Assembly: GCA_026417795.1 (NCBI GenBank)
Contig: JAOACP010000015.1
Coordinates: forward strand, 1 to 46,445
Reading direction: 5' to 3'
Source: Thermanaerothrix sp.
Lineage (GTDB): Bacteria > Synergistota > Synergistia > Synergistales > Synergistaceae
DNA: 46,445 bases
The position numbers and the translations under genes were made by a program. This document shows positions 27,959-30,662 of this stretch, piece by piece (within the stretch, counting starts at the first letter, position 1; each line of letters opens with the position of its first letter). The notes under the pieces are model-generated. The model was not told the origin of the DNA. It did not search any database and saw only the letters and a program-made list of their open reading frames with translations.

Positions 27959-28051
27959 AGGTCTCACCTCCTGAGTTTAAATTATTATAATGCAAATTGT
28001 GATAGCATATGGACCATCCTATCTAGTCCGAAGGGGCGCCAAGGGGGTGGG

Positions 28052-28702
28052 ATGATGCTTTGCGGGAACTGCGGGTACAACAACTCCGCCAGCGCCAAGT
28101 TCTGCATCCTGTGCGGATCTCAACTGTCCAAGGGGGAGATAATGGATCCGGACCCTAAGATATGCCCCCAATGCGGGGAACCCAACGAGGGGCACGCCAT
28201 GTTCTGCTCTGCCTGCAGATCCGACGTTTCAGCCGCCCCGAGGCGATCGGTCCTAGGGGGGGCAAAAATTGAGCAGCGCCATGATGAAGCAGCCGGCGGC
28301 CTGGAAACCGACGAACAGGAAGGGTTCCAACTGGAAGAGCAAGATCATGGCGCCGACCCAGGCGACACTCCGGTCCAAGACCTTTCAGAACACGAACCGG
28401 GGCTTTCACCTCCCATGGAGGAGCCGCCCCTTGAACCTCTTGTCCAGGAGGATCCGCCTTCCCAACCTTCCGCTTCCCAGCCCCAGGGAGTTGAGCCCGA
28501 AGGGGAGGAAGAGAGGGGAAGCGGGAAACGGTTAGGATTCCTTCCATTACCCAAGGTGCCCATTCCAAAGCTATCCCTCAACTTTAATTTCAACTCCAGA
28601 CTTCTGATGAAGAGTCTTATCCGGATTGCCATCATGATAGTCATAGCATCCATCGGGGTATCCATAGGGCTGGTTTCAATCATGGTGATCAAGGGAAGAT
28701 GA
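28052..28702 (+). CDS. Zinc-ribbon protein with C-terminal membrane anchor
   Basis: 216 residues from ATG 28052 (a second ATG follows at once; AGGGGGTGG upstream). Two zinc ribbons lie in the first 55 residues, CGNCG...CILCG and CPQCG...CSACR. A long acidic, Pro-, Glu- and Gln-rich linker (about 75-165) follows, then a short basic patch and one C-terminal hydrophobic segment (IAIMIVIASIGVSIGLVSIM, about 190-212). The layout is that of a tail-anchored cytoplasmic sensor or scaffold; no function is assigned. A good promoter for the next gene begins 27 bases after the stop. Confidence 0.75.
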   Translation: MMLCGNCGYNNSASAKFCILCGSQLSKGEIMDPDPKICPQCGEPNEGHAMFCSACRSDVSAAPRRSVLGGAKIEQRHDEAAGGLETDEQEGFQLEEQDHGADPGDTPVQDLSEHEPGLSPPMEEPPLEPLVQEDPPSQPSASQPQGVEPEGEEERGSGKRLGFLPLPKVPIPKLSLNFNFNSRLLMKSLIRIAIMIVIASIGVSIGLVSIMVIKGR

Positions 28703-28729
28703 GAGAGGGCTGAAGTTTTCGGTATAAAG

Positions 28730-28757
28730 TTGACAAATCGCGAAAAAGGCCCATAAT
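28730..28757 (+). promoter_or_regulatory. Candidate promoter of the DEAD-box helicase gene
   Basis: A perfect -35 TTGACA (28730-28735) and a five-of-six -10 CATAAT (28752-28757), 16-base spacer. Transcription from here would give a leader of about 215 bases. Confidence 0.55.
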
Positions 28758-28783
28758 GATCCAGTGACTTCGCAGGGAACTTT

Positions 28784-28813
28784 AAAAGGGGCGTGCAGGT
28801 CGCGCCCCTTTTT
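28784..28813 (+). terminator. Intrinsic terminator in the helicase leader (possible attenuator)
   Basis: AAAAGGGGCG (28784-28793) pairs with CGCCCCTTTT (28803-28812), 9-base loop, with T5 at 28809-28813. It lies downstream of the candidate helicase promoter, so it either ends read-through from the zinc-ribbon gene or attenuates the helicase transcript. Confidence 0.7.
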
Positions 28814-28847
28814 GGTGTCCTTTGGGGACATAGGCCATGCGAGTTTT

Positions 28848-28937
28848 CCGTATCGTCCCGGCATAAAGCCGTTTTTTCGAAGCTTCTTCTTAACAAGGGC
28901 ACCGACTCTTGAAGGACAGTGGGGGCGGGGACGACGG
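28848..28937 (+). promoter_or_regulatory. Second terminator-like hairpin and competing pairing in helicase leader
   Basis: CGGC-ATAAA-GCCG followed by T6 (28859-28877) is a small terminator-like stem. A competing long-range helix is possible: CCGT and CGTCCC (28848-28851, 28854-28859) with GGGACG and ACGG (28928-28933, 28934-28937). This would enclose and partly disrupt the small stem. Confidence 0.3.
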
Positions 28938-28979
28938 AAGACCCGAGCCTTCACAAAAACTTCAGGAGGTAGTGCACAC

Positions 28980-30662
28980 ATGACGATCGATCGATTTGAC
29001 CAGTATCCCATCAGGGACGAGCTTTTATCCGCCTTAAGGCGCAAGGGTTTTGACCATCCAATGCCGGTTCAGGTAAGGATGCTTGAGGATCCAACCTTGC
29101 TGGACGGGGACCTCATAGTCCAGGCCAAGACCGGTTCCGGCAAGACCCTTGCCTTCGCCTTGCCGCTTTTAAACAACATGGAAATTGGGGAACGGGCCCC
29201 CAGGGTGTTGGTGCTCTCCCCCACCAGGGAGCTGGCCCTTCAGACCGCCAGGGAGTTCCAGTGGCTGGGGTACGAGATGAGGATAAAGGTGGCCTCCCTG
29301 GTGGGAGGCATGGACATGGAGAGGCAGGTAAAGGCCCTGCGGGACGGCGCCGCGGTGGTGGTGGGCACACCGGGCAGGGTGCTGGACCACATCCGGCGGG
29401 GCTCCTTCAAAGCCGATACGGTGCGTAGCCTGGTCCTCGACGAGGGTGACCACATGCTTGACCTGGGCTTCAAGGACGAGCTGGAGGCCATAATGGAGGC
29501 CATGCCGGGGGTTGAGAGGAACTGGCTGTTCTCCGCCACCATGCCGGAAGAGGTGGTGACCCTGGCCAAGCAGTACCTGGACGCCCCAAGGAAGATATCC
29601 CTGGTGGATGATGCAGCCAAGCACGACGACATAGTCCAGAGGGCCTACATAATACCCGCCCGGAAGCGGTTCGAGGGGCTGGCCAACGTGCTCCTCTTCG
29701 AGCGTCCCCGCAGGGCCATCGTGTTCTGCGCCACCAAGCTGCAAACCCAGGAGCTGGCGGAACGGCTCTGCGACGAGGGGTTCAAGGCCGCGGCGCTGCA
29801 CGGGGACATGACCCAAAGGGAGCGGAACATGGCCCTTGAGAGCCTGCGGCGTGGAAGGAACCAGATAATGGTGGCCACCGACGTGGCCGCCCGGGGGCTG
29901 GACATAAGCGGCGTGTCCCACGTCATACAGTTCGGCCTGCCCGGGTGCCTTGAGACCTTCATACATCGAAGCGGAAGGACCGGCAGGGCGGGGCAGGAGG
30001 GGCGCAACCTGATCCTGCTTACCGCCCGGGAGGCTGGTGAGTTCCGGTCCATGATAAGGGGAACCTCTTTGGAGGTGGAGTGGCTCCCAGCGCCGGACGC
30101 GGAAGAGGTGGAGTCCCTTTCCAGGGCGGAGCTGGAGAGGTGGTGCGTAAGCAACCCTGCGGAGACCGAGGAGTACCTGGAGTGGGCGGAGGAGATACTC
30201 CAGCGGGACGACGCGGCGGAGATAGTGGCAGGGCTCTTAAGCCGGTCCCTTGCCGACGAGCCCAAGGGCTACTCCATACGGGAGGACGTTCAGATGGAGA
30301 TGGCCAAGGGCCGCAACTCCGACAGGCCGCGGCGGTCCTCCGACCGTCCCCTCAAGAAGCTCATCTCCGGGGCGGTGACCATGAAGTTCCCCTCCGGCAG
30401 GCAGGACGGATGGGAAGTGGGATCCCTTCTTGGGGCTCTGTGCAGGGGCCTTGGGGTGAAGAGGGAGGACGTGGGGAACATAAAACTGAAGGACCGTTGC
30501 GCCTTTGTGGAGCTCTCCCCCTACGCGGCTTCCCAGATCGAGCGCCGGCGGGATAGGTTGGCCCGGGAGGGGCTCAACGACTTCGTAAGGTTCGAGCAGG
30601 ACTTCCAGCCCGCCCCAAGGGATCGCAAGAGGAGCTTCTCCAACCCCCATAGAGGCCGCTAA
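28980..30662 (+). CDS. DEAD-box RNA helicase with DbpA-type RNA-binding domain
   Basis: 560 residues from ATG 28980 (AGGAGGT upstream). Two RecA domains carry motif I AKTGSGKT, Ia PTRELA, TPGR, motif II in the variant form DEGD (VLDEGDHML), SAT, then VFCATK, ATDVAARGLDI and HRSGRTGRAG. A helical linker follows (about 360-450), then a C-terminal DbpA/CsdA-like RNA-binding fold (AVTMKFPSG to CAFVELSPYAA, about 465-545) and a basic tail. Such enzymes remodel rRNA and mRNA structure, often in cold or ribosome assembly stress. The 277-base upstream gap with terminator-like structures points to leader-based control. Confidence 0.92.
   Translation: MTIDRFDQYPIRDELLSALRRKGFDHPMPVQVRMLEDPTLLDGDLIVQAKTGSGKTLAFALPLLNNMEIGERAPRVLVLSPTRELALQTAREFQWLGYEMRIKVASLVGGMDMERQVKALRDGAAVVVGTPGRVLDHIRRGSFKADTVRSLVLDEGDHMLDLGFKDELEAIMEAMPGVERNWLFSATMPEEVVTLAKQYLDAPRKISLVDDAAKHDDIVQRAYIIPARKRFEGLANVLLFERPRRAIVFCATKLQTQELAERLCDEGFKAAALHGDMTQRERNMALESLRRGRNQIMVATDVAARGLDISGVSHVIQFGLPGCLETFIHRSGRTGRAGQEGRNLILLTAREAGEFRSMIRGTSLEVEWLPAPDAEEVESLSRAELERWCVSNPAETEEYLEWAEEILQRDDAAEIVAGLLSRSLADEPKGYSIREDVQMEMAKGRNSDRPRRSSDRPLKKLISGAVTMKFPSGRQDGWEVGSLLGALCRGLGVKREDVGNIKLKDRCAFVELSPYAASQIERRRDRLAREGLNDFVRFEQDFQPAPRDRKRSFSNPHRGR

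Follow-up and report, generated by a model that had tools for sequence, protein, structure and literature searches.

How a bacterium sets the level of its RNA helicases is, to our knowledge, poorly known beyond a few models, and the locus described here raises this question for a helicase gene preceded by a long and structured leader. The window, i.e., the whole stretch of DNA that was analysed (46,445 nucleotides), lies on contig C15 of a 1.92-Mb draft genome (G000). Its forward strand carries a DEAD-box RNA helicase gene (28980..30662) with a C-terminal DbpA-type RNA-binding domain (PF00270, PF00271, PF03880) and, upstream and in the same orientation, a zinc-ribbon gene (28052..28702; PF13240, PF12773), which lies outside the helicase leader. 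The helicase stays below the cut-offs of two NCBIfam equivalogs, with 388 bits for CshA (cut-off 646) and 376 bits for DbpA (cut-off 524), and the antisense open reading frames 28345-28902 and 28676-29044 have no match in Pfam. Close orthologues of the helicase occur in 139 of the 183 genomes of the order, including two further species of the genus of the window (G002, 97% identity; G001, 86%) and another genus of the same family (G006, 72%). The helicase leader of about 216 nt is here understood as a control region of two tiers, an early terminator followed by a switch at the Shine-Dalgarno sequence, and the probability of this reading is put at roughly 0.6.

Promoter and early terminator of the helicase leader

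The sigma-70-type promoter (Table 1) is located where the original prediction had placed it. It is the sole promoter-like site within 28000-29500 (1.5 kb), and its boxes and their spacing are identical in G001, G002 and G006. Transcription is predicted from the promoter position to start near 28764. The strong terminator that had been proposed directly behind it is likewise present, recurs together with the promoter in relatives and would yield a terminated RNA of about 50 nt. Judged from its own sequence alone, this hairpin is only moderately unusual, with 11 of 2000 dinucleotide shuffles yielding an equally good U-tailed hairpin at that distance and a U-tract of five Us only; an automatic terminator scan did not report it, since the greater part of its Us are base-paired within the stem. 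The conservation of the small hairpin that follows is not clear in G001. Folded from the predicted start, the leader reaches z = -3.3 and is better than all of 200 shuffles, while the leader minus its first hairpin reaches z = -2.0.

Table 1. Positions of promoter and leader elements upstream of the helicase gene (RNA elements predicted)
Feature	Position	Strand	Details
Sigma-70-type promoter	28730..28757	+	TTGACA-16-CATAAT: TTGACA 28730-28735, 16-nt spacer, CATAAT 28752-28757; 11/12 consensus matches
Short 5' segment ahead of terminator	28764..28783	+	purine-rich GCAGGGAAC; start predicted
Early intrinsic terminator, candidate attenuator	28784..28813	+	AAAAGGGGCG..CGCGCCCCUUUUU; stem 28784-28795 with 28801-28812; -18.8 kcal/mol
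Small hairpin GUGUCC-UUU-GGGGACAU	28814..28831	+	-7.5 kcal/mol; directly 3' of terminator
Helix B, 5' strand UUCCGUAUCGUCCC	28846..28859	+	UUCCGU-AUC-GUCCC; pairs with 28928-28939
Weak stem CGGC-AUAAA-GCCG with six U	28859..28877	+	4 bp (28859-28871), -4.9 kcal/mol
Helix A, 5' strand CUCUUGAAG, anti-Shine-Dalgarno	28906..28914	+	pairs with 28960-28968 (9 bp); minimum-energy fold
Helix B, 3' strand GGGACGACGGAA	28928..28939	+	GGGAC-G-ACGGAA; pairs with 28846-28859
Helix A, 3' strand CUUCAGGAG	28960..28969	+	overlaps Shine-Dalgarno AGGAGG (28964-28969), occluded in minimum-energy fold

Recurrence of the arrangement across the order

For the comparison within the order, upstream DNA was taken from 128 helicase loci, start codons were located, and promoters and U-tailed hairpins were searched by rule. 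A promoter with at least 10 of 12 consensus matches was recognised in 79 helicase leaders. An early terminator, defined as a hairpin with an energy of at most -11 kcal/mol that begins 15-40 nt past the -10 box, was found in 46 of these and in 45 after L081 (f4), an automatic match without a real U-tract, had been taken out by hand. These 45 leaders represent 19 of the 35 genera with a recognisable promoter and span six families of the order (f1, f3, f6, f7, f8, f10). The spacing between -10 box and hairpin is narrow (18-36 nt, median 28), whereas the stems are diverse, with 32 distinct 5' arms, and the start codon lies anywhere from 18 to 206 nt away; the terminated RNAs predicted for the relatives measure 44-73 nt. 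Between -10 box and stem, a GGG, GGAG or GAGG run is found in 40 of the 45.

Control DNA of 446 kb, for which the window was combined with twenty 20-kb stretches from G002 and G086, contained 33 comparable promoters, two of them with a hairpin at that place, one being the window helicase itself. With the latter excluded, one of 32 control promoters is left against 45 of 79 leaders (p = 3e-8) or, counted by genus, against 19 of 35 (p = 3e-6), values which both overstate the evidence as the genera are related and not independent. The recurrence of the early terminator across families nevertheless appears clear from these sequences, and the comparison lends good support to what the original prediction had proposed in general terms, namely that the leader is structured and contains a candidate attenuator.

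The arrangement is not universal. More than half of the genera lack the early terminator by the rule used; g11, g12, g16 and g18 feature a conserved structured helicase leader in its place, and the f4 genera possess yet another one. No recognisable promoter was found at the helicase in g24 (24 genomes), and an upstream search of helicase homologues from other phyla, which gave no strong promoter, was uninformative.

The downstream half: a candidate switch at the ribosome site

Two further elements had been predicted downstream, a second terminator-like stem and a competing long-range helix. The former could not be sustained: the stem is weak, neither its base pairs nor its U-run are retained in G001 or G006, it does not rise above chance, and as a terminator it is probably non-functional. 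The long-range helix (helix B) is indeed present and conserved in the four closest genomes (G000, G002, G001, G006), with two pairs changed on both sides, but it competes with neither terminator; it encloses the second stem, having one base in common with it, and excludes helix A. Helix B outscores all slid versions of itself, and 65 of 500 shuffles reach the same support, so the compensatory support is thin. Helix A has 91.7% of cells paired across the four genomes, with one-sided changes only and no compensatory support. The two helices cross and are thus mutually exclusive, each being possible in all four genomes. Helix A has the better predicted energy, with a margin of 1-5 kcal/mol within the genus and of 11 kcal/mol in G006, and is preferred at 15, 37, 55 and 65 C. 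According to these folding models, helices A and B represent a candidate translational switch.

This raises the possibility that control is mainly translational, with helix A hiding the Shine-Dalgarno sequence, helix B freeing it and the early hairpin acting chiefly as a 5' stabiliser. The exclusive pair of helices and their small energy difference within the genus are in line with this, as are some f1 relatives in which the 5' hairpin has no U-tract, and leaders of f3 and f8 (L088, L090, L105) that offer a similar choice, a 5' GGAGGG pairing with CCCUCC or, alternatively, CCCUCC (CCUCC) with the ribosome site. Still, such control would leave the U-tract and the tight spacing in 19 genera unexplained, a thermometer is not predicted by the folding energies, given the preference for helix A at all four temperatures, and the lead of helix A in G006 amounts to 11 kcal/mol. 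Mainly translational control is considered unlikely.

In a wider set of leaders (L088, L090, L105, L110, L112, L118), a CCCTCC located after the terminator has two possible pairing partners, the 5' GGAGGG and the Shine-Dalgarno sequence, and in L090 and L112 the anti-Shine-Dalgarno pairing persists despite an altered Shine-Dalgarno sequence.

Comparison with known systems

The Rfam covariance models (riboswitches, T-box, cspA thermoregulator and others) gave no match to the leader at gathering thresholds and a match at chance level only at a relaxed threshold. The closest counterpart in the literature is GraL, a terminator located 19 nt into the greA leader of E. coli with about one third read-through in dependence on GreA (PMC6829880), which lowers its own expression in this way (PMC6829880; Potrykus 2010 cited there). 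Both leaders feature a promoter, a segment of about 19 nt and an intrinsic terminator, with RNAs of 49-59 nt for GraL (PMC6829880) and the similar length predicted for the window, followed by a further 100-200 nt or so of leader before the gene (greA AUG at +150). Neither is a simple riboswitch, and both gene products act on RNA or transcription. Counted from the predicted start, the helicase leader carries its intrinsic terminator within the 20-30 nt that characterise GraL. The layout resembles that of GraL, but both the gene and the phylum are new: the regulated gene is a DEAD-box helicase instead of greA or rnk. Autoregulation and imprecise termination have been shown for GraL, whereas they are putative for the helicase leader. 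An antiterminator was proposed for the greA leader by Naville and Gautheret, but none was found in the helicase leader; the main text of their survey of premature terminators is silent on helicases (PMC2965389).

Other systems share single traits with the locus. The DEAD-box helicase CrhR of Synechocystis autoregulates and thus influences its own expression (PMC3485376), but a leader terminator was not described there, and transcript and protein stability are affected in connection with redox state and temperature (PMC3485376). In B. subtilis, the RNA chaperones CspB and CspD alter the read-through of intrinsic terminators (PMC8307031). Cold-shock domain (CSD) genes occur in the genomes studied here as well, two of them in G000, but the csp leaders sampled carry other hairpins and any link to the helicase leader would be hypothetical. 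The vmlR leader of B. subtilis combines transcription and translation attenuation, with expression increasing in the absence of the helicase CshA (PMC9226507); however, it controls an ABCF factor and senses translation inhibition via regulatory parts of its own (PMC9226507). The literature hence holds precedents for the helicase, the cold-shock protein and the polymerase factor ideas, none for this gene.

Control of read-through

In a classical attenuator, the 5' arm of the terminator is sequestered by an alternative helix. Pairing of the 5' segment with this arm is at chance level, both in the window (z = +1.2) and across the leaders (mean z -0.1). A classical attenuator with an RNA antiterminator was therefore rejected, as the upstream segment does not claim the 5' arm beyond chance. 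Because the segment of about 20 nt ahead of the stem offers no antiterminator, read-through is probably set outside the RNA, by a protein or by the polymerase.

In the two-tier reading, transcription would start near 28764 and meet the intrinsic terminator within about 50 nt, an arrangement derived from the comparison, with termination itself predicted. Many messages are then expected to end as short leader RNA, and helicase mRNA would arise by read-through alone, the extent of which might be set in trans by the helicase, by a cold-shock-type RNA chaperone or by the polymerase and its factors. Messages that have passed the terminator would fold into one of the two exclusive helices, with the ribosome site predicted to be hidden by A and left free by B. 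Such a device would probably serve to keep the helicase at the level required, a role that GraL plays for GreA. From the sequence evidence, the cell probably throttles its helicase by the early ending of many messages, and both feedback of the helicase on its own leader and cold induction are plausible candidates. A more specific proposal, an autoregulatory attenuator throughout the order, is tentative and on the whole doubtful: the helicase would load on the single-stranded 5' segment and unwind (or stabilise) the adjacent terminator in its own nascent leader, the hairpin thereby gauging free helicase activity, with the second switch at the ribosome site. The very enzyme under control could plausibly act on a hairpin flanked by a single-stranded tail. 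More generally, a terminator fixed some 20 nt from the start of the helicase transcript in 19 genera would make the regulation readable from a single short RNA and a single read-through ratio, and would apply the principle of GraL to a further gene in a further phylum.

Alternatively, promoter and terminator might serve to make a small RNA of about 50 nt that acts in trans, with the helicase mRNA being read-through or a by-product. Such an RNA would suit the short predicted length (44-73 nt) and the constant layout, and GraL acts both in cis and in trans (PMC6829880). Yet across genera it is the layout that is conserved and not the sequence, and the element is situated directly upstream of one and the same gene, suggesting a role in cis; a function in trans is hence deemed unlikely.

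Assignment of the hairpin to the helicase transcript

The hairpin could also merely terminate the zinc-ribbon gene, the helicase being transcribed from a start downstream of 28813, an outcome named in the original prediction as the one that would contradict it. The zinc-ribbon gene ends 82 nt ahead of the hairpin. All four of the closest genomes have such a gene upstream of the helicase (G001, G002 and G006 a relative of the one in the window), so that from the genus and G006 alone the terminator of a leader could not be told apart from that of a gene end. However, there is no promoter-like site past the hairpin, and across the order the hairpin is tied in position to the promoter, regardless of the upstream gene. 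The pair of promoter and terminator is kept in f7 (L068-L070) and f8 (L106), where the upstream gene is divergent from the helicase, as read from start codon and ribosome site in the sequence, and in one f3 genus a near-identical leader stands under differing upstream DNA (L080 compared with L073 and L078). Since stems and upstream genes vary while the spacing of promoter and terminator is nearly constant, the terminator is assigned to the helicase leader itself. A plain gene-end terminator is thus improbable; as far as sequence comparison can tell, promoter and terminator are real and paired, and the hairpin is part of the helicase transcript.

Ribosome-mediated attenuation, in which a leader peptide translated from the purine-rich segment blocks the terminator, is very improbable. 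Many relatives do have Shine-Dalgarno-like GGAGGG stretches and possible starts ahead of the stem, but the frame, its length and its start codon vary even inside one genus, and the frame open in the window is closed in G001. In f3 g45 (L103, L138, L141, L142), a possible short open reading frame, ATGGAGTCAAT(A/G)..GAAGGCCCGTGGGTCTTCCT, runs through the terminator and reaches the helicase start in L103 only.

Further leaders and observations

The helicase leaders of g11, g12, g16 and g18 (e.g., L014, L022, L025, L036; G056:C113:324-440) comprise a conserved element of about 110 nt abutting the ribosome site, ATCGCAAATCC..AATCCTTTGAACGG..CGCG..GGATTTTTGTGCGGGATGCGAAA.GGGAGG, which is possibly a new structured RNA. 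A covariance model of these leaders (R1) finds further leaders of g16. Homology of the domain behind the terminator to this element was rejected, as R1 misses the window, G001, G002 and G006. The helicase leader of f4 g32 (L076, L081, L084, L100, L101) is structured without a terminator, with GAAACGT..ACGTTTC nested in GTCGA..TCGAC immediately before the ribosome site.

Besides that of the window helicase, a single promoter in the control DNA is followed by an early terminator (-20.8 kcal/mol), namely L148:17417 (+) of G002; a long open reading frame was not found behind it, and it possibly belongs to a small RNA gene.

A leader common to helicase and cold-shock protein genes was rejected, as the latter carry other hairpins. 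In f3 g37, a cold-shock protein gene is convergent to the helicase about 150 nt past its 3' end (G086:C1:366397-366585 and G088:C1:1829566-1829754). The leaders of csp genes (L172, L174, L176, L178, L181, L184) feature a small conserved hairpin after the promoter, GTCGAT(T/A)GGCGCCATCGAC in f1 and CTGATAGGCGCCATCAG in f3, with a fixed loop GGCGCC and a stem that appears to covary.
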